A stretch of 64,000 nt of DNA from Snodgrassella communis. GTDB lineage: Bacteria; Pseudomonadota; Gammaproteobacteria; Burkholderiales; Neisseriaceae. Of this stretch, positions 1,378 to 32,125 are shown in pieces; position 1 is the first letter of the stretch, and each line of letters starts with the position of its first letter. Both the position numbers and the translations under genes were made by a program. Location of the stretch: positions 124,001 through 188,000 of the forward strand of contig NZ_CAJZCD010000001.1 in the NCBI RefSeq assembly GCF_914768045.1, written 5' to 3'. A model generated the notes under the pieces. That model saw only the letters and a program-made list of their open reading frames with translations, ran no database searches and was not told the origin of the DNA.

Positions 1378-1860
1378 TTAAACCGCTGTCAATAATACAA
1401 TGGCCTGGGCTTCAATAGCTTCTTCCCGTCCAAGGTAACCTAATTTCTCATTGGTTTTACCCTTAATATTCACCGCTTCAAAGGACAGATTCAAATCTGA
1501 AGCAATATGCATCCGCATCTGATCTATATAAGGACGCAACTTTGGCCGCTGAGCAATCACCGTACTGTCAACATTCACCACCCGCCAGCCAGCAGCCTGC
1601 ACTGCTGCATAAGCACCACGTAACAACACACGACTATCTGCGTCTTTATTCACAGCTGCGTCATCCGGATAAAGTTTACCAATATCGCCTAAAGCCGCAG
1701 CACCTAACAGCGCATCAGTAATGGCATGTAAGAGAACGTCGGCATCTGAATGGCCAAGCAAACCTTTATCAAAAGGAATATTTACCCCGCCCAGTAACAG
1801 TGGTCTGTCTGCCACCAGCTGATGCACATCATAGCCCTGTCCGATTCTTATCGAATTCAT
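1378..1860 (-). CDS. ispF: 2-C-methyl-D-erythritol 2,4-cyclodiphosphate synthase
   Basis: Fifth step of the MEP isoprenoid pathway: releases CMP and forms the cyclodiphosphate. At 160 residues it is full length. The zinc ligands appear in GQGYDVHQL near the N-terminus and in the stretch [18 protein letters not shown]; the C-terminal [13 protein letters not shown] matches the family. The ATG overlaps the ispD stop by four bases, so the two genes are translationally coupled, a very common arrangement. Confidence 0.96.
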
Positions 1861-2564
1861 TCACCGGTTTCCTGTTGTAAAAAATAAGTGGCTAACATAG
1901 CATCTTGTGCGCTAGTCAATTTAAAATTGCATACATCGCCACTCACCAGCAGCGGCGCCAGACCAAGCATTTCCACAGCGGAAGATTCATCTGTTATTGC
2001 CTCTAAATCTGCCTGTGCTAGTGCTCTGGCAAGAATACCAGCACGGAACATCTGTGGTGTTTGTGCCTGCCACAAGCCTGCCCGATTGACTGTACAGCAT
2101 ACATGCTGCGCTGCATCAGCTTGCTTTAAAGTATCTGCTACCGGCAGCGCCAGCAACCCGCCTACGGCATGATTGTGTGTAGCTGCAAGCAGACGCTGCA
2201 CCGAATCTGCACTCACACAGCAACGGGCTGCATCATGTACCAGTAGCCAGTCATTATCCTGTAAGCCAAATTGCTGCTGTGCCTGCGCAATGCCATTACG
2301 CACAGTCTGCGCACGTGTGGCACCACCACAGCGCAGAATATGAACATGCGCCGGTAACGCCGCTGCCGGATAGATGCTATCAATATAATCATCCTGTTCA
2401 GCAACCACAATCAGCAATAAATCAATGACACTGATTTGTGTCAGCCGCGACACGGTATGCTCTAAAACAGTTTTACCCGCCAGCTTAACGTATTGTTTCG
2501 GACACGCTGCGCCAAAGCGGGCACCGATGCCGGCAGCCGGAATCAGCCCTACATAGCGGGTCAT
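1857..2564 (-). CDS. ispD: 2-C-methyl-D-erythritol 4-phosphate cytidylyltransferase
   Basis: Third step of the MEP pathway: couples CTP and MEP to give CDP-ME. 235 residues. The N-terminal nucleotide-binding loop reads [11 protein letters not shown] with a following PKQY, and VHDAARCCV carries the metal-binding Asp region; all are IspD hallmarks. The start overlaps the dnaQ stop by four bases and the stop overlaps ispF, giving a three-gene coupled unit dnaQ-ispD-ispF. Confidence 0.96.
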
Positions 2565-3301
2565 GCAGATTTATCCTCAGTATCCTGCTGCCACTGCCGC
2601 CAGACACAGGGCGCGCCAACAATTTTATCCAGTGCCTGCAAATAGGCCTCATGTTCCTCCAGCTCTTCACTGCTGGGCGTGACTATTGGCAGTGCCGAGT
2701 GTTTAATCTGATACTGGCTGCCACCAGCCGGATTATTGCTGGTATTGGCTGTATCCATCAGTTCATCAACCAGACTAAACTGGCTACGGGTCATGGCCAG
2801 ATATACTTCGCCCAGTAGCTCACAGTCAATCAGTGCACCATGCAGCACACGTTTGCTGCGGTCAACTTCCAGCCGTGTACACAAAGCATCCAGCGAATTC
2901 TTTTGCCCCGGATATCTGTCCCGTGCCATTTTGAGGGTATCAGTGATATCGCTAGTAATACTTTCAACCTCAGGCATTCCCAGACGGCTAAACTCCATAT
3001 TCAGAAAACCGACGTCAAACGCGGCATTATGAATAATCAGCTCGGCACCACGTAGATAATCGGCAATCTGCTGTGCCACCTCAGCAAATACCGGCGCATT
3101 CATTTCTTTCAGCTTGTCCAACGTAATCCCGTGCACCGCTATTGCTTCTTCAGGAATATCACGCTCAGGATTAACGTACAAATGCAGATTATTACCAGTA
3201 AGACGCCGGTCTATCATTTCCACACCGGCAAATTCAATCAGACGGTCACCGTTGTTTGCCGACAGACCTGTGGTTTCAGTATCGAGAATAATTTGACGCA
3301 T
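2561..3301 (-). CDS. dnaQ: DNA polymerase III epsilon subunit (3'-5' proofreading exonuclease)
   Basis: Proofreading subunit of the replicative polymerase. 246 residues, close to the usual 240-250. The DEDDh exonuclease motifs are complete: LDTETTG (residues 6-12, Exo I), HNAAFDVGFL (about residue 92, Exo II) and HGALIDCELL (about residue 154, Exo III with the catalytic His and Asp). The C-terminal tail, which in this family contacts the alpha subunit, is present. It is the first gene of the coupled dnaQ-ispD-ispF unit. Fusion of function with isoprenoid genes is only positional. Confidence 0.95.
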   Translation of the reverse strand: MRQIILDTETTGLSANNGDRLIEFAGVEMIDRRLTGNNLHLYVNPERDIPEEAIAVHGITLDKLKEMNAPVFAEVAQQIADYLRGAELIIHNAAFDVGFLNMEFSRLGMPEVESITSDITDTLKMARDRYPGQKNSLDALCTRLEVDRSKRVLHGALIDCELLGEVYLAMTRSQFSLVDELMDTANTSNNPAGGSQYQIKHSALPIVTPSSEELEEHEAYLQALDKIVGAPCVWRQWQQDTEDKSA

Positions 3302-3567
3302 ATTGATGCTTTAAGCGGTTGAACACCGCAGATTTAAAACAATAATCATACTAAAAATCTATTACTGCGCATACCTGCCCGTACAACCCGTTACAGATTA
3401 ATTTTCAGACCTAAGTAGCAAAGTAAGATTTTTCACAGTATATACAAGCAAAACCACCATAGTTTTCAAATTATTGTCATATAAGCGACTAAACAGCACA
3501 CATAACATTATATTTATTCGATTTAAAATCAATAATATAAAAATTAAATCTAGATATCTATGCAAAT

Positions 3568-3611
3568 AATAATAACTATCATTTGCAATTAGAATCCAAT
3601 TTGTTTATGAT
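3568..3611 (+). promoter_or_regulatory. Sigma70 promoter overlapped by a Fur-type box
   Basis: A -35 element TTGCAA (3583-3588), a 17-base spacer and a -10 element TATGAT (3606-3611) form a near-consensus promoter reading to the right. A 19-mer at 3568-3586 matches the classical Fur box consensus at 13 of 19 positions by my own count and overlaps the -35. No protein gene follows, so the promoter appears to drive a small RNA. Iron-responsive repression is inferred from the box. Confidence 0.65.
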
Positions 3612-3617
3612 GTCCTT

Positions 3618-3780
3618 ATCGTCATGCAACAACACAGTTATTCACTAATAACTTGTTGGCGTAATTGAAAAATCTATTTAAATAAATTGTTGTCTGCGCA
3701 ACAGTTTATTCTGCAAGTTAACTATTGGTAGTGGTTTGTGTTCCTTTTAGCGCCCCTTTTTTTTAGGGGCGATTTTTTTT
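3618..3780 (+). ncRNA. Candidate iron-regulated small RNA (NrrF-like)
   Basis: The stretch between the promoter at 3583-3611 and the strong terminator at 3751-3780 has no coding frame but contains three hairpins: 628-659 offset (CAACAA pairing with TTGTTG at 3628-3659), a 12-bp stem at 3681-3692 with 3699-3710 around a 6-base loop, and the terminator. The predicted transcript is about 160 nt. In Neisseria, NrrF is a Fur-repressed sRNA of roughly this size that down-regulates succinate dehydrogenase. The assignment rests on architecture (Fur box, size, terminator), not on sequence comparison, so the name is not assigned. Confidence 0.6.
3751..3780 (+). terminator. Strong intrinsic terminator of the candidate sRNA
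   Basis: A 7-bp GC-rich stem (CGCCCCT at 3751-3757 with AGGGGCG at 3765-3771) is followed by eight Ts at 3773-3780. Polarity is rightward, towards the 3' end of the oppositely oriented outer-membrane channel gene. Confidence 0.85.
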
Positions 3781-3828
3781 GTTTGGTTATTTAATGCAAT
3801 ATACAAACTTGCTCAATCAGTATCACCA

Positions 3829-5220
3829 TCAGCGCGGCTGATAACGTCCAGCCATAGCCTGATAAATCAGATTTTCATTCTGCAAGACATTATAACGGTT
3901 ATTCAATACACTTTGTGCTGAAGAATATTGCGTATTTAATGCATTCAGCCAGTCACTGAGCGGATTGGTACCATACTGATAGCGCGCATGATAATAACGG
4001 CTGTTTTTTAAATCAAACTGATATTTCTGCTCAGTATTGGCCAGAGTAACGCGGCTAAGCGAATATTGCTGATAATAGCGCGCCACCTCATTAAGCGCTG
4101 TAGTCAACGACTGTTCAAAAGTTAATTTCGCACTATCAAAATCAGCCTTGGCCTGCTTATTCTGCCAGTACAGAGTTTGCCAGTCGAGAAACGGCAGATT
4201 AACATTAACACTCGCTGTCCCAACTGGAAAATGCAAGGCAGAAGCAGACGTATCAGAACGCGAATTGACCACGGTACTCAGACTAATACTCGGGTACCAA
4301 TTTCTCCGCGCAGCCTGCTGACTGGCATAGGCAGACTGTAAGCGATATTCTGCCGCGCGTAAATCAGGACGATTGGCCAATACAGATAACGGCACATCCA
4401 GATTTACCCCGCCAAAATGAATCTGATTTAATGGTGTCGGCCGGATATCTGCTTGTTCGTTAGGGCGCTGATTCAGTAAATTATGCAAATTCTGCACCAC
4501 TTCTATCCGGTTTTGTTGCAGCAAAATCAGGCTGTTTTCTGCATTCAATAACGATTGCTTGGCATTGGTGGCATTAATACTGCTCACCTTACCCACCTGA
4601 TATTGTGCCTGCGCAATACGTGCAATCTGCTGGTACTGCCTGATACTGTCTGTAGTCAGATTAATGGCACCATCAATATAAGCCAGATGGAAATAGTTAT
4701 CCACCACACTGTTAATCAACGACAGCCGGCTGGCGGCCATATCCTGCTCACTGGCATGATAACGCCAGAAGGCTGCATCGGTATTGGCACGTATTTTCTG
4801 CCACACATCCAGTTCATAGCTCAAACCTAGCTGTCCACTAAAATTGCGGCTGGATACCCCACCATGTTTCAGATCTTTAGTACTACTGGCACCAAGCGAA
4901 CCATTAGCCTTGGGAAATAAATCCACACCATTCAATCGGGCGCTATAGCGCGCTTTTTCAGCGGTTAACGCCGCCTGACGTAAATCAGCATTATTGGCAA
5001 GTGCCATGCTGATTAACTGATTCAGAGTGGCATCCTGATAAATTTCCCACCAGTTTGCATTAACCTGATATTGCGCAGCAATTTCTGCACTGCTTAACAT
5101 TCCGGCCTTACGCAGACTTTGCTGCGGATATGAAGTATGCGTAGCACAGCCAGCCAGCAGTACGCTTAAACTGAGCACCAATACAGCAGTGCTTCTTTTC
5201 ATAGAGATATTTTTCATCAT
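3829..5220 (-). CDS. Outer-membrane efflux lipoprotein (NodT/TolC-type channel)
   Basis: Outer-membrane exit duct of a tripartite exporter. About 463 residues. I prefer the tandem ATG at 5215-5220 over the upstream in-frame TTG at 5244, because it places a short signal peptide directly before the lipobox LAGC; the Cys would be lipidated. Two OEP repeats with long heptad-rich helices (for example the AEKARYSARLNGVDLFPK region and the AEYRLQSAYASQQAARRNWYPS region) are typical of the NodT family. It follows macB by about 95 bases on the same strand, so it probably completes a MacA-MacB-channel system. Confidence 0.88.
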   Translation of the reverse strand: MMKNISMKRSTAVLVLSLSVLLAGCATHTSYPQQSLRKAGMLSSAEIAAQYQVNANWWEIYQDATLNQLISMALANNADLRQAALTAEKARYSARLNGVDLFPKANGSLGASSTKDLKHGGVSSRNFSGQLGLSYELDVWQKIRANTDAAFWRYHASEQDMAASRLSLINSVVDNYFHLAYIDGAINLTTDSIRQYQQIARIAQAQYQVGKVSSINATNAKQSLLNAENSLILLQQNRIEVVQNLHNLLNQRPNEQADIRPTPLNQIHFGGVNLDVPLSVLANRPDLRAAEYRLQSAYASQQAARRNWYPSISLSTVVNSRSDTSASALHFPVGTASVNVNLPFLDWQTLYWQNKQAKADFDSAKLTFEQSLTTALNEVARYYQQYSLSRVTLANTEQKYQFDLKNSRYYHARYQYGTNPLSDWLNALNTQYSSAQSVLNNRYNVLQNENLIYQAMAGRYQPR

Positions 5221-5314
5221 GGTTACTTTAAACTTTAGCGGCAACCGAACCCTGCCGGATCAATACACCAGCGCAAACACTTACCCTCAACTACAGCTTT
5301 CAGGAAAAACAAAC

Positions 5315-7252
5315 CTAATCACGTGACAATGCATCAATCGGATTCAATTGCGAAGCCCGTTTTGCCGGCATAAAGCCAAACAGCACCCCAATCACACTGG
5401 AACACAGTACAGCCATCACAATAGACAACGGTGAAAACGACATAGCAAAATCATTAGCCACAAGATTAAACAGCATACTGATAGCAAAAGAGAACAAGAC
5501 ACCAACCACCCCGCCAATCAGACAAATCAGCACCGCTTCAATCAGAAACTGCTCAAGAATATTGTGCTGCCGCGCCCCGATGGCCATACGGATACCAATT
5601 TCCTTTACCCGCTCAGTTACCGACACCAGCATAATATTCATCACCCCGATACCGCCCACTACCAGAGAAATCAGAGCAATACTGGAAATCAGTAATGTCA
5701 TAGTACCGGTGGTGCTTTCAATAGTCTGCTTGATAGTATCACTGTTACGGGTAAAAAAATCTTCCGCACCATGCCGGGCTTTCAGTAACTCAATAATGCC
5801 TATTTCAGCCGTTTGCGAATTGACATTATCTTTCACCTTAACCGTTACCGAAGTAATATACTTTGAACCTGAAATCCGATTCATCAGCGTGGTATAGGGC
5901 GTGTAAAGTTGTAAACTGTCACTATCCATAAAACCATTATTATTTGGTGCTGTCACCCCTATAACCCGCAATGGCCGTTTATTAAACAAAATCACCTGCC
6001 CCAGCGGATTAGTACCATCAGCAAACAACTTATTCTTAGTATTATCATCAATCACCACCACCTGACTGTTCTGGGTAACATCATCCTCATTAAACAGGCG
6101 ACCAACAGCTATCTTAATACCGCGTACATCAAAATATTGATCACCCACCCCATACATCTGAGCAGAAAGAGACTGATTAGCATAGGTTAATGTACCACTG
6201 GAACTGACTCCCGGCGTGACACTGTCCACATAATCCTGCTGTCTCAATACTTCAGCATCACCCACAGTCAGCGTTTTAATACGCGATGAACGACGATCGC
6301 CAAACCCATATCCCGGATAGACCGAAACCGTGTTTGTGCCCATAGCATTAATGTTTTCCAGAATTTTTGCCTGCGAACCTCGTCCCAATGCCACCACCGA
6401 TACCACCGAAGCAATACCAATGATAATCCCGAGCATAGTGAGAAAGGAGCGCATTTTATGCGCCATGATTGCCTGAATCGACATCCGAAACGATTCAAAC
6501 AACTGATCACGGTAAAAATGCCAGGAATTATGCTCTGCAATACTTTCAATCTTGCTGGGGCGCATACTTGTATTCTTACTATGATCAGCAATAATGCGCC
6601 CGTCGCGAATTTCAATCACCCGATTGGCATTGGCAGCAATAGTCGGATCATGGGTGACCATTACAATAGTATGTCCTGCATCATGCAGCTTATGCAGAAT
6701 TTCCATCACATTTTGCCCGCTACCGGTATCCAGTGCGCCGGTTGGTTCATCCGCAAGAATGATTTCACCACCATTCATCAGCGCCCGAGCAATACTCACT
6801 CGCTGCTGCTGGCCACCAGAGAGTTCACTGGGTCGATTTGCTTCCTTACCCGCTAACCCGAGCTGCGCCAGTAACTCATCTGCCCGTTTCAGCCGTTCGC
6901 CGTGTTCCATACCGGCATACACCGCCGGCAAGGCCACATTTTCGCGCGCAGTTAACGAACTGAGCAGGTTATAACGCTGAAAAATAAAACCAAAACTTCG
7001 GCGCCGCAAAGCAGCCTGCTCGTCTGCTGTCATAGCCGCAGTTTCCACACCGTCTATTCTGTATGAACCACTAGAAGGCACATCCAGACAGCCAATAATA
7101 TTCATCAGCGTAGACTTACCAGAACCAGACTGGCCAATAATAGCCACAAAATCGCCTTTTTCGATGCTCAGATTGATATCCTTAAGCACCTGTACCCGGT
7201 TTTCACCATGGCCGAACCAGCGATTAATATTCTTAATTTCCAATAAACTCAT
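5315..7252 (-). CDS. macB: MacB macrolide-type ABC exporter (ATPase fused to permease)
   Basis: Mechanotransmission ABC transporter of the inner membrane, 645 residues as in E. coli MacB. The N-terminal ATPase has Walker A GQSGSGKST (about residue 40), signature LSGGQQQR (about 143) and Walker B ILADEPTGALD. A first membrane helix near residue 275 is followed by a large periplasmic domain (about 295-515) and three C-terminal helices (FtsX-like). Family members export macrolides, siderophores, toxins or lipoproteins; the substrate here is unknown. The start lies three bases after macA's stop, implying coupling. Confidence 0.94.
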   Translation of the reverse strand: MSLLEIKNINRWFGHGENRVQVLKDINLSIEKGDFVAIIGQSGSGKSTLMNIIGCLDVPSSGSYRIDGVETAAMTADEQAALRRRSFGFIFQRYNLLSSLTARENVALPAVYAGMEHGERLKRADELLAQLGLAGKEANRPSELSGGQQQRVSIARALMNGGEIILADEPTGALDTGSGQNVMEILHKLHDAGHTIVMVTHDPTIAANANRVIEIRDGRIIADHSKNTSMRPSKIESIAEHNSWHFYRDQLFESFRMSIQAIMAHKMRSFLTMLGIIIGIASVVSVVALGRGSQAKILENINAMGTNTVSVYPGYGFGDRRSSRIKTLTVGDAEVLRQQDYVDSVTPGVSSSGTLTYANQSLSAQMYGVGDQYFDVRGIKIAVGRLFNEDDVTQNSQVVVIDDNTKNKLFADGTNPLGQVILFNKRPLRVIGVTAPNNNGFMDSDSLQLYTPYTTLMNRISGSKYITSVTVKVKDNVNSQTAEIGIIELLKARHGAEDFFTRNSDTIKQTIESTTGTMTLLISSIALISLVVGGIGVMNIMLVSVTERVKEIGIRMAIGARQHNILEQFLIEAVLICLIGGVVGVLFSFAISMLFNLVANDFAMSFSPLSIVMAVLCSSVIGVLFGFMPAKRASQLNPIDALSRD

Positions 7253-28744: not shown

Positions 28745-28887
28745 TAATTATTTTACTCCAACCAGTAACAGGCCAGATTCAAAAGCATTTTTGGAAAATA
28801 ATTAACACCAAAACCACCTTTTTTCAATCTGGCCTTTGATGGTAATATATTGTTTGAAATATATCTATATAATCTAAATTTGCAACC

Positions 28888-28906
28888 ATAAACTCTTGGA
28901 GTTTAT
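28888..28906 (-). terminator. Hairpin after the reverse transcriptase gene
   Basis: Perfect 8-bp stem (28888-28895 with 28899-28906) and TTG loop about 17 bases after the RT stop. No strong T-tract follows, so termination is plausible but not certain. Confidence 0.4.
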
Positions 28907-28922
28907 ATGCGCAGAAAAATTA

Positions 28923-29978
28923 TTAAATCTTTTCGGTAAGGACTGATTTATTCCTTATAAAATTTATATTTCTATACTTTCGAATATCTGATTTTAATCT
29001 ATTACGCTTATAATGATTTAAAGGTTGAGCAATTTTAATGTGAATTTTTTCTAACCTCTTCATCATTTTATCAGCAATTTTGGGATGAAATTTGCTTAAA
29101 TATTGTACTTTTCCTTGAACACTTTCGAAATTTTTAACTACAAATTTCATATCCTTTTCTTGAAAATGTTGCTCTAATTGATACAAAGCAGCTCTTATAT
29201 TTGCTCTTTTTTTCTTTGGGATTGATAGTCTTGATTTTACAATATTAATTTTGTTTACAGTAAGCGACTGAGTTTTATGACTAGGTGCTATTGATATTTT
29301 TTCAGTCTGTAAACTGAATTGATAAGCTCTTATCATTCCTATTACGATTCTATGTACTTCCTCTATATCTTTTTTCTTTTTTTCAGATAAGGAGGAAACA
29401 CTAATATCATCAATAAATCTGGTATAAACAAAATTTTTATTTCTTAATTTTTGTACCACGTTAACTTCTGACCGATAAAAAACCAAATTTGCAATATAAG
29501 AACTACATGGAGAACCTTGCGGAACTTGATTATTAACGGTTGTTAACTTTGCCAGTACCTGAGATACCTCTGCAGAAAAATGAAAAAAATTCTTGAATAT
29601 ATCAAATACATGTTCATAAGTAATAGCAGTAAAGAATGATTTAATATCAAAATTACAAATAACTTTCGCATTTAAATGTTGAGATACATTGGTGTAGGTA
29701 TCTCTATTAGGAAGAGCTCCATATAAAAAATCTGGATAAGAGACTACTTTAAATATTTTAGAATTTAATCTTTTAAGAAAATATTTTAACCGTGGTTTAC
29801 ATAAATAAATTGGTCGGGTTTTACCGTTAGATTTAAGTATTGGTATAGGTCCTTCATAAAGAAAGTCTATATTTCCTAACAAGTAAATAATTGTATTACA
29901 ATCAATATTAAGATGCTTGGCTAAGGATTCAATTGACTGAATAGCAGCTAAGGGGTATTTAAATTGTAAATTAAGCAT
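28923..29978 (-). CDS. Retron-type reverse transcriptase
   Basis: 351 residues. RT palm motifs are present: first catalytic Asp in NFDIKSFF (Asp111), VPQGSP (152-157) and the paired Asp in YTRFIDDIS (FIDD 188-191, where YADD is usual). A retron-like region X is seen as NVSQH (97-101, consensus NAxxH), and region Y as QSLTVN (237-242), a departure from VTG. No maturase, endonuclease or integrase domain follows; the C-terminus is a basic helical tail of about 100 residues. The start overlaps the Xre gene by eight bases. With the structured RNA upstream this is best read as a retron RT that would make msDNA. Strongly AT-rich, so probably horizontally acquired. Confidence 0.85.
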   Translation of the reverse strand: MLNLQFKYPLAAIQSIESLAKHLNIDCNTIIYLLGNIDFLYEGPIPILKSNGKTRPIYLCKPRLKYFLKRLNSKIFKVVSYPDFLYGALPNRDTYTNVSQHLNAKVICNFDIKSFFTAITYEHVFDIFKNFFHFSAEVSQVLAKLTTVNNQVPQGSPCSSYIANLVFYRSEVNVVQKLRNKNFVYTRFIDDISVSSLSEKKKKDIEEVHRIVIGMIRAYQFSLQTEKISIAPSHKTQSLTVNKINIVKSRLSIPKKKRANIRAALYQLEQHFQEKDMKFVVKNFESVQGKVQYLSKFHPKIADKMMKRLEKIHIKIAQPLNHYKRNRLKSDIRKYRNINFIRNKSVLTEKI

Positions 29979-30252
29979 TATTTTTAATCGAATTAATTAT
30001 TTGTTCATCAAAAAGTTTTGCAATATTTGGCGACAAATTTAATTCGCGCTTATCTGATGCTAAATATACTAAAATTTCAATAGGTACACCTAGAGAGTTA
30101 GAGATTTTTTCAATAGTATCTAAAGTAGGCTTTCTTTTATTATTCTCTATCAAAGAAAGATAGGATTGAGATAAATCAGTCCGATTTTGCAACTCTTCTA
30201 ATGAGATATCTTTTGATACTCTACAAAATTTTATTGCTTTACCGATATTCAT
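29971..30252 (-). CDS. Xre-family HTH protein of the retron-like operon
   Basis: 93 residues from the ATG at 30252, preceded by GGAAAA; a longer frame start at 30330 would overlap the previous gene. Residues about 5-62 are a Cro/C1-type helix-turn-helix (SLEELQNRTDLSQSYLSLIENNKRKPTLDTIEKISNSL pattern, given here in part). The C-terminal 30 residues may dimerise. It sits between the small protein and the RT and overlaps the RT start. It could be the effector or regulator of the retron, and could bind the palindrome over the operon promoter. Confidence 0.85.
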   Translation of the reverse strand: MNIGKAIKFCRVSKDISLEELQNRTDLSQSYLSLIENNKRKPTLDTIEKISNSLGVPIEILVYLASDKRELNLSPNIAKLFDEQIINSIKNNA

Positions 30253-30289
30253 TAATATTTTCCAAAACGAATGTAGGGCTTGCCCATAT

Positions 30290-30514
30290 TTAGCTAAAGT
30301 ATTTTTCAATTGCCTCACTGATGACCTCAATAATATCCATTACTTTTGCTATACCATTTAAATATGGAAGTAATGAAAACTTACTTTTGTCTTCTTTCAG
30401 TTGCAAAAGAAAACTTTCTAGCTCTTTCCGAGCAGGGTCGCTAATCGTATTCGACTTATCTGCAAGAATTTTTTCAATCAAACAAATAAGGTCTTTAATT
30501 TCATTTTGTTTCAT
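30290..30514 (-). CDS. Small helical protein, first gene of the retron-like operon
   Basis: 74 residues, Lys/Glu-rich and predicted almost entirely helical, with no recognised domain. The ATG at 30514 follows a TATGGAG ribosome site. It lies between the structured RNA and the Xre gene (37-base gap) and shares their low GC. Small accessory proteins beside Xre proteins occur in some retron classes, so a role in toxin control or RNP assembly is possible, but the sequence itself gives no function. Confidence 0.65.
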   Translation of the reverse strand: MKQNEIKDLICLIEKILADKSNTISDPARKELESFLLQLKEDKSKFSLLPYLNGIAKVMDIIEVISEAIEKYFS

Positions 30515-30538
30515 AAAATCTCCATAAGTTAATATAAA

Positions 30539-30560
30539 CCGGGCAAGACACCTGCCCTGG
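30539..30560 (-). terminator. Hairpin between the retron RNA and the small protein gene
   Basis: A GC-rich stem GGGCA/TGCCC extended by CC/GG with one bulge (30539-30545 with 30553-30560). It could partly terminate the RNA so that the ncRNA outnumbers the mRNA. No long T-run follows on the minus strand. Confidence 0.45.
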
Positions 30561-30563
30561 CGA

Positions 30564-30793
30564 TTTCAAGTATTGTTGCCGGTTTAGTACGATTAGCAAC
30601 CACAGAAGCCCACCTACACACGTTCAGACCCTGGCACTTTTTTATATATGCACAACTACTGCTTTCCGTCTTCCGTTATCCAGTTTACTTCGGCCTACGA
30701 ACTACGTCTGTTGCGCGCTGTAGCTGACATATAAAGCAAATATCCACAATGTGGCACCCAAAATAGGTTAATTCTCCACAACAATACTTAAAA
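30564..30793 (-). ncRNA. Candidate retron msr-msd RNA
   Basis: About 230 bases bounded by complementary ends: 30779-30793 (5' end, a1) and 30564-30578 (3' end, a2) form a 15-bp duplex with a single G-U pair. This is the defining architecture of retron ncRNAs, where a1 and a2 pair next to the branching guanosine. The interior is not coding, is richer in GC than its surroundings and contains several short stems (for example CCAC-ATT-GTGG). It lies directly upstream of the small protein, Xre and RT genes. I could not place the branch G or the msd boundary by eye. Confidence 0.65.
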
Positions 30794-30853
30794 CTAAGAG
30801 ATTCAAAATAAAATTAAAGATCGAAATGGACGGTTCATCCATCAATTAAATTT

Positions 30854-30913
30854 ATTATAATTAGCCTTTTAATAAATGTCAATATTATTTACTATTAGTA
30901 ATAATATTGACAT
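30854..30913 (-). promoter_or_regulatory. Consensus promoter embedded in a long palindrome
   Basis: On the minus strand TTGACA (30877-30882), 17 bases, TATAAT (30854-30859) is a perfect sigma70 promoter, with start expected near 30847, some 50 bases before the RNA's a1 end. The -35 lies in the left half of a perfect 14-bp inverted repeat (30876-30889 with 30900-30913, 10-base centre). A repressor bound there would block the promoter; the Xre protein is the obvious candidate. Confidence 0.8.
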
Positions 30914-31153
30914 CACAAAATTTAAATTTTCAATCTCAAATAATTTTTGTTTAATTTATAAGATAAAATTTCCTCTACAAAATTTACCTTAACAGATCAT
31001 AATTGATATTTTATTTAGCAGCAGAGTATTGATGAGAAAGTCTATATAATGTTTATAATGTTTAATTTAAAGTGGCTTTGTCTGTATCAGTGTAAATACT
31101 TTCGCTATGCAGAACGGTTTATTAGCTAGGATAAGGGAGATAAGCGGGAAAAT

Positions 31154-32125
31154 ATGTGTAATCAATTACCGGTTCAGCCGGAATATACGCTGGATAATTC
31201 GGCTATTTACAGCCGGCATCTGCCTACAATTAAGCAACTGCAATATTTTCTGGCGGTATGTGAGGAAGGCAATTTTCGCAAGGCTGCCAGCAGGCTGGGG
31301 ATAAGCCAGCCACCACTATCCAGCAAATTAAGGCGCTGGAAGAGAAACTGCAAACCACGCTATTTGTACGCAATACCCGTTATGTGCTGCTTACTGCACA
31401 GGGCAGGCAATTTCGAGATAAGGCCAGAAGCTGGCTGGAAGGTTTATCACTGGCAATAAGCAATATCAACCCCTACTCTGCTGACCGGTTAACAATTGGT
31501 ATTACTAAAATTCTGGGATTTAATTTTGTTCCGTTGTTCCATGAATTTAGTAGCCGTTTTCAGCAGCACATTGATCTGTTGCAGCAGGACTATTCTTCTA
31601 AGGAGCTGCTGGCTGAATTCAATAAAAATAATATTGATTTGGTGATCATCTCTGATTATAAACATGACAGTCATCAGGCCAGCAGTTTATTTGTCTATCA
31701 GGAAACCATGCTGCTGGCTTTACCGGAAAACCATCCGGCTTGTGCACAGGAAAAAAATAGATTTAAATGCGGTGGTGGATTTACCTCTTTACTGGTGCAA
31801 ACGCTATCAGAATCCGGCGTTGTACGACCGGCTGCAAAAGATAATCAGCCAATTACCAACCCCACTGACTTTGCAGCAGAAACTACCTAACTTCTTAACT
31901 ATGCTGATGGAAATAGCTATGGGCAGGGGTATGTTGTTGCTGCCAGCATCAATGGCACAGGCTCATGCGCAGGGAGTGGTGTATAAAAGGCTGTCTGCAA
32001 AATATGAGCAGCAGCTATCGATGGATATGCATCTGCTCTGGCATAAGTCGGCAGCGGACAACACCATAATCAATGAGATGATTGAGTACTTTAAGCTTCA
32101 CCATACGGCCTCTGTGGCGTTATAA
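31154..32125 (+). pseudogene. LysR-type regulator with two frameshifts
   Basis: Three overlapping frames (31154-31459, 31384-31890, 31664-32125) together spell one LysR-type protein of about 320 residues: a winged HTH (KQLQYFLAVCEEGNFRKAASRLGISQPPLS) and a substrate-binding domain. The first break is at about 31320, where one C seems lost; restoring it gives LSQQIKALEEKL. The second is at the A-run 31751-31757, where removing one A restores EKIDLNAVVDLP. Both are single-base homopolymer changes, so recent inactivation, phase variation and sequencing error are all possible. The HTH is followed by the divergent or downstream aldo/keto reductase, a likely former target. Confidence 0.8.

Follow-up and report, generated by a model that had tools for sequence, protein, structure and literature searches.

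Complementarity between the non-coding RNA and the small-protein message of a diverged type VI retron from Snodgrassella communis points to a possible antisense control

We analyzed a 64,000-nucleotide stretch of Snodgrassella communis DNA (contig NZ_CAJZCD010000001.1, positions 124,001 to 188,000; the window) that carries on its minus strand an operon supported as a diverged type VI retron, with, in order, a non-coding RNA (ncRNA), a small protein (SP), an Xre-type helix-turn-helix (HTH) protein, and a reverse transcriptase (RT). Two segments of the ncRNA, one in its leader and one beside its closing helix, are complementary to the coding sequence of SP, and this complementarity (pairings PX and PY) covaries between loci. 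We propose with moderate confidence that the retron has an RNA control of SP built into it that would resemble type I toxin-antitoxin regulation. The preliminary description of this DNA had the layout of the operon right, and the antisense pairings between the ncRNA and the SP message went unseen in it.

Results

Segments of the ncRNA are complementary to the SP message

The elements that enter into the pairings are as follows, from 5′ to 3′ in the transcript.

30826–30842, minus strand: P1, a 7-bp 5′ hairpin (ATGGATG-aac-CGTCCAT)
30804–30820, minus strand: X5, the leader segment antisense to the SP start (16 Watson-Crick pairs and one G-U among 17)
30778–30794, minus strand: a1, which pairs with a2
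30606–30617, minus strand: ncRNA segment tested for pairing PZ
30588–30601, minus strand: Y5 (GGTTGCTAATCGTA), antisense to SP codons 22–27, ending 8 nt ahead of a2
30563–30579, minus strand: a2, which pairs with a1
30492–30508, minus strand: X3, SP codons 3–8, which pairs with X5
30436–30449, minus strand: Y3, SP codons 22–27, which pairs with Y5
30290–30514, minus strand: SP, a small protein of 74 aa with predicted helices at residues 3–19, 26–41, and 49–73
30273–30281, minus strand: segment of the SP-HTH gap tested as the PZ partner

In PX, the leader that follows P1 is complementary to SP codons ∼3–9 across type VI loci. All 17 of the 17 positions pair in the window (shuffle p 5e-5), and the best partner of X5 across the whole 1.6-kb operon is the X3 site in SP. 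A helix score of at least 18 was obtained in 37 of the 48 loci that possess P1, with 31 of those helices starting 2 to 6 nt past the hairpin. A divergent subset of 22 of these 48 loci had a mean score of 20.65 with the locus's own partner, compared to no more than 17.21 in 20,000 permutations of partners; the observed value was likewise reached by none of 20,000 permutations when the set was divided into the nine loci whose leaders do not resemble a boxA element (see below) and the 13 whose leaders do. When SP was recoded synonymously as a control, 13 of 28 loci yielded p ≤ 0.05.

PY joins the segment just 5′ of a2 to SP codons ∼21–26 across type VI loci. The window helix is paired at 14 of 14 positions (one G-U) and stands out in the synonymous control (p 0.0033), and Y3 is the best partner of Y5 in the 1.6-kb operon. 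In 17 divergent loci (of 52) the own-partner score was 27.6 and the best of 20,000 permutations gave 24.0, the own partner being best or tied in 12 of the 17 and the synonymous control giving p ≤ 0.05 in eight. Changes on both sides of the helix were found at 15 of 16 scored positions among 28 distinct fitted helices. PY was also present in all six held-out loci (p ≤ 0.024), i.e., loci not used for discovery, from which a seventh (L062), in which SP was not found, had been dropped. A third complementarity, PZ, matches the ncRNA segment beside Y5 to the gap between the SP and HTH genes of type VI loci; it attained p ≤ 0.05 in 36 of 52 loci and p ≤ 0.04 in three of the six held-out loci, and in 32 loci none of 20,000 permutations equaled the observed score, the own partner being best in 10. 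Many relatives exhibit a stronger PZ than the window.

Predicted folds place the SP start under the leader

The ∼230-nt non-coding stretch had been described as closed by a 15-bp a1/a2 duplex; we find this helix, which extends by one pair at each end to 17 pairs (helix score of 32.8, p ∼0.001 by shuffling). The minimum-free-energy (MFE) fold of the window RNA contains P1, X5-X3 (17 pairs), all 17 pairs of a1/a2, the P4 hairpin, and a 7-bp helix (looked for in the window alone) between leader positions 30797–30803 and the SP Shine-Dalgarno stretch GGAGATT (30517–30523). Opening the region from −12 to +16 around the SP start was computed to cost 16.8 kcal/mol in the full-length window RNA, 6.2 kcal/mol without the leader, and 7.8 kcal/mol with the leader shuffled. 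The corresponding means for 19 divergent loci, taken from 45, were 13.1, 7.7, and 8.9 kcal/mol, and the leader added more than 1 kcal/mol in 16 of the 19. P1 was identified in 48 of 52 type VI loci and covaries in relatives; a leader-hairpin model (R3) built from other type VI loci matched the window at 30804–30844 with an E value of 0.005, the best match in the 64 kb. The stability of the whole ncRNA was not clearly higher than that of shuffled sequences (z −1.3 and −1.6), and an Rfam search of the ncRNA matched no family. A best-of-search hairpin was found at the P4 place in relatives as well, in a comparison made without a control. The presumed msd of the window and that of Neisseria sp. 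83E34 (L022) have the 11-mer GCCGAAGTAAA in common (window 30684–30694), and the remainder differs.

The element is classed as a diverged type VI retron

Type VI retrons belong to the classification of Mestre et al. 2020, followed here as given by PADLOC and the citing paper PMC8541194; the latter describes them as possessing an RT together with DNA-binding and small auxiliary genes, and gives no mechanism. The remaining parts of the window operon are listed below.

30879–30910, minus strand: operator-like palindrome TCAATATTATT..AATAATATTGA with core TTACTaatAGTAA, overlapping the −35 element
30854–30882, minus strand: promoter TTGACA-17-TATAAT (−35 at 30877–30882, 17-nt spacer, −10 at 30854–30859)
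30812–30822, minus strand: boxA-like sequence GATCTTTAATT, two mismatches from GYTCTTTAANA
30797–30803, minus strand: leader AATCTCT, paired with the SP Shine-Dalgarno stretch in the window MFE fold
30541–30557, minus strand: P4 hairpin (GGGCAGG-tgt-CTTGCCC), which separates a2 from the SP ribosome-binding site
29971–30252, minus strand: HTH, Xre-type, 93 aa (PADLOC HTH_VI, 5.8e-24)
28923–29978, minus strand: retron RT, 351 aa, whose start overlaps the HTH stop

Every part of the operon named in the preliminary description is present on the minus strand where it had been placed, including the promoter described as perfect, the helical 74-residue protein, the Xre protein, for which HTH_VI was the best PADLOC model, and the 351-residue RT, which retains both catalytic Asp residues in its FIDD motif. 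The HTH open reading frame (ORF) as listed starts at an upstream TTG, and alignment of homologues favors the ATG at 30252. Of the departures from the RT consensus that had been pointed out, FIDD stands, the counterpart of VTG is VNK inside LTVNK rather than LTVN, and NVSQH is only a mild deviation, the three other type VI RTs in the alignment having NAEAH, DARKH, and NASLH at this place.

The assignment to type VI made at the outset is supported by RT_VI and HTH_VI as best PADLOC models, a homologous SP, and the leader hairpin of the family. Among the 25 best of 43 PADLOC families matching the RT, every one was a retron model and none represented group II introns, diversity-generating retroelements, or abortive infection (Abi) systems; the sole other kind of RT encountered was a weak Drt2 match (3.6e-7), far below its cut-off. 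RT_VI (6.1e-63) is tied with RT_V in bits (210.7 versus 210.6). The guess that the RT belongs to a divergent branch agrees with our tree, where the window RT pairs on a long branch with that of Snodgrassella alvi WF3-3 (88% identical, the nearest named relative at this locus) and the pair falls among types V and VI without being resolved between them. Because of this tie and the unsettled tree, the type is taken from the HTH, the SP, and the RNA. The Xre HTH gene lies immediately upstream of the RT gene, as in type VI retrons. The PADLOC SP_VI models gave no match to the window SP, although one of them matched 32 of the 37 small ORFs in the alignment of relatives; a profile of SP built without Snodgrassella sequences recovered the window SP at an E value of 1.1e-4, with no other ORF among the 366 of the window falling below E 1, and the two align over the length of SP. 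A structure model of SP (pLDDT 72) had no informative match, and the top 19-residue hydropathy was 1.2; we do not class the operon as a type I toxin-antitoxin system, in which a toxic small membrane protein is expected.

The window has in common with type VI retrons (PADLOC SP_VI, HTH_VI, and RT_VI) the SP-HTH-RT order, a homologous SP, and the P1 leader hairpin, and differs from them in an SP beyond the PADLOC models, a long-branched RT, and an ncRNA missed by the 3′ model of relatives (R1). Type V retrons (Se72-like, with an RT and a cold-shock protein; L013 and L014) have a cold-shock-domain effector downstream of the RT, unlike the SP-HTH pair upstream of the RT in the window, even though RT_V and RT_VI score the window RT equally. 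Retrons are a class known for anti-phage defense, and the window element may form multicopy single-stranded DNA (msDNA) and act against phages, as predicted in the preliminary description. L013 and L014 are small plasmids (∼4 kb) from E. coli and Klebsiella that encode an RT with a cold-shock-domain protein, and several viral contigs (L095, L096, L097, L098, and L102) harbor type VI retrons that include SP and HTH.

Transcription was estimated to start at ∼30847, so the RNA would open ∼5 nt ahead of P1. Both promoter hexamers are kept in S. alvi WF3-3, where the spacer sequence differs, and the operator-like palindrome is identical there. Its core TTACTaatAGTAA may be compared with TTCACTgtcAGTGAA, which stands 5′ of the −35 element in several other type VI loci, and a palindrome (3-nt center, arms of at least 5) was found at this place in 23 of 48 loci, a figure without a chance control. 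These palindromes suggest possible HTH operators and autoregulation by the HTH protein. In L012, L021, L023, L036, L049, L045, and others, the −35 element is preceded at a distance of a few nt by TTCACTgtcAGTGAA or a variant of it.

Discussion

A possible RNA control of SP

In the control that we propose, pairing of SP with the leader and ncRNA in the primary transcript would hold SP translation off. Because Y5 ends 8 nt ahead of a2, it is expected to lie in the part of msDNA copied first, by analogy with Ec86. Copying of the Y segment by the RT may relieve the hold, so that msDNA synthesis would remove the antisense sequence and license SP, which would act as the effector. Type I toxin-antitoxin systems with locked toxin mRNAs, such as tisB and aapA1, provide a parallel: they too have a long-range structure over the start of a small ORF and an RNA complementary to the effector message. 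Unlike in those systems, the complementary RNA of the window is the RT template and part of the same transcript, and SP is assumed to be a toxin. There is precedent for toxin mRNAs that are made in a translationally inactive form (PMC11228461).

A number of observations weigh against this control. In the window, PX does not stand out in the synonymous control (p 0.46), which we ascribe to AT-rich codons that leave little freedom; AT-rich gene starts are common and could favor PX generally. The own partner was best or tied for PX in just 11 of 22 loci. The Paraburkholderia/Burkholderia group (L028, L031, L040, and L041), L021, L025, and L059 show a weak PX or none, and the Massilia group (L003 and L042) shows it in part. 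By the rule used, P1 is absent from four of 52 loci. For 29 of the 52 loci, among them the window, PY is the best partner in the operon; it is weak in L058, L067, L020, L017/L035, L028, L050, and L084, and the window PZ is not significant (p 0.06 and 0.12). The helices were fitted per locus and the relatives are not independent, so that the counts are not exact probabilities. The model of the 3′ part of the ncRNA (R1) finds no match in the window, and a longer 5′-part model (R2) reaches the window at E 1, which is not significant. In cis, PX crosses PY and PY crosses a1/a2, so all can form only with pseudoknots; the RNA therefore probably switches between folds or acts in trans. Pairing of the ncRNA with the message in cells and regulation of SP are proposed from complementarity and predicted folds, and the effector role presupposes that SP is toxic. 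To these is added the resemblance of the leader to boxB-boxA, which carries an explanation of its own.

Alternative explanations

With GYTCTTTAANA as the boxA consensus (PMC5725501), 32 of 48 leaders are within two mismatches at 2 to 6 nt past the hairpin, compared to 1.2 expected by shuffling, and the window leader and the rrn spacer boxA of its own genome have GATCTTTAA in common over 9 nt. The boxB-boxA order of rrn leaders (PMC10250234) is that of hairpin and boxA here, and the rrn leader, with boxB-boxA-boxC, similarly presents a 5′ hairpin, a boxA-like sequence, and a long-range helix closing a structured RNA, whereas in the window the closing helix has coding sequence as its 3′ strand and the binding of Nus factors (NusB-S10) is putative. 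P1 with the boxA-like sequence would then provide rrn-type antitermination, allowing polymerase to cross the untranslated ncRNA without Rho termination, and the match to SP would be secondary. We regard this account as possible but doubtful, since the nine divergent leaders without boxA likeness still exceed all 20,000 permutations with their own SP, PY and PZ are left unexplained, and the window boxA is itself two mismatches off. As a second function antitermination is a fair candidate; it is compatible with RNA control of SP, and the two may act jointly. An unlikely alternative in our estimation is that the ncRNA reaches into the SP ORF and that helices X, Y, and Z form a scaffold for RT recognition or RNA maturation without regulating SP; in the MFE fold of the window, X5-X3 does lengthen the a1/a2 stem, PX, PY, and a1/a2 could make one pseudoknotted core, and ribosome passage would then break the template, tying both functions together.

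We consider it highly improbable that this is an ordinary type VI retron in which the complementarity has no function and merely reflects common descent and gene starts rich in AT. The failure of the window PX in the synonymous control, the relatedness of the loci, and the several lineages without PX or PY are what such a by-product would lead one to expect, but the permutation tests, the synonymous control of PY (including the window value), the changes on both sides of PY, and its recovery in all six held-out loci argue otherwise. We give hardly any credence to a decaying or dead element. The close copy in S. alvi WF3-3 (L015, 3001–4051; G303:C48) has in-frame stops in its RT, with SP, HTH, and ncRNA close to those of the window; nevertheless, the window SP, HTH, and RT frames are all open, and both genomes keep the promoter hexamers, leader, and operator, with variation in the promoter spacer and in a portion of the msd.

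The conserved complementarity between template RNA and effector message offers a concrete mechanism for type VI retrons, for which none was found described in the literature searched (most subscription papers and bioRxiv lay outside its coverage); that literature also lacked the census of retrons and the paper that set up the classification, so the pairings may already be published. If RNA control of SP holds, an RT would regulate by consuming an antisense RNA, and the type VI ncRNA and the ORF that follows would not be independent, a caution for those who use them in genome editing.

Genomic site

The insertion extends from 28849 to 31054 (strand not assigned) relative to a sister genome (L158) that has ∼125 bp there instead. 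Two further genomes have other genes at the same site: a type IIG restriction enzyme-methyltransferase (L159, 1637 aa, 1520–6433, PADLOC E 0) and an ORF of 401 aa that, judging by its sequence, may encode a transporter (L160, 2047–3252). These contents fit a variable, defense-bearing site, and this RT was found in two of 14 Snodgrassella genomes. Beside the retron, a LysR-family regulator (31107–32125, plus strand) is broken over several frames, and its counterpart in L160 (352–1320, minus strand) is an open ORF of 322 aa. An inverted repeat spotted by eye after the RT gene (GGCCAGATT...AATCTGGCC, 28771–28834) sits in sequence that is also present in the retron-less L158.
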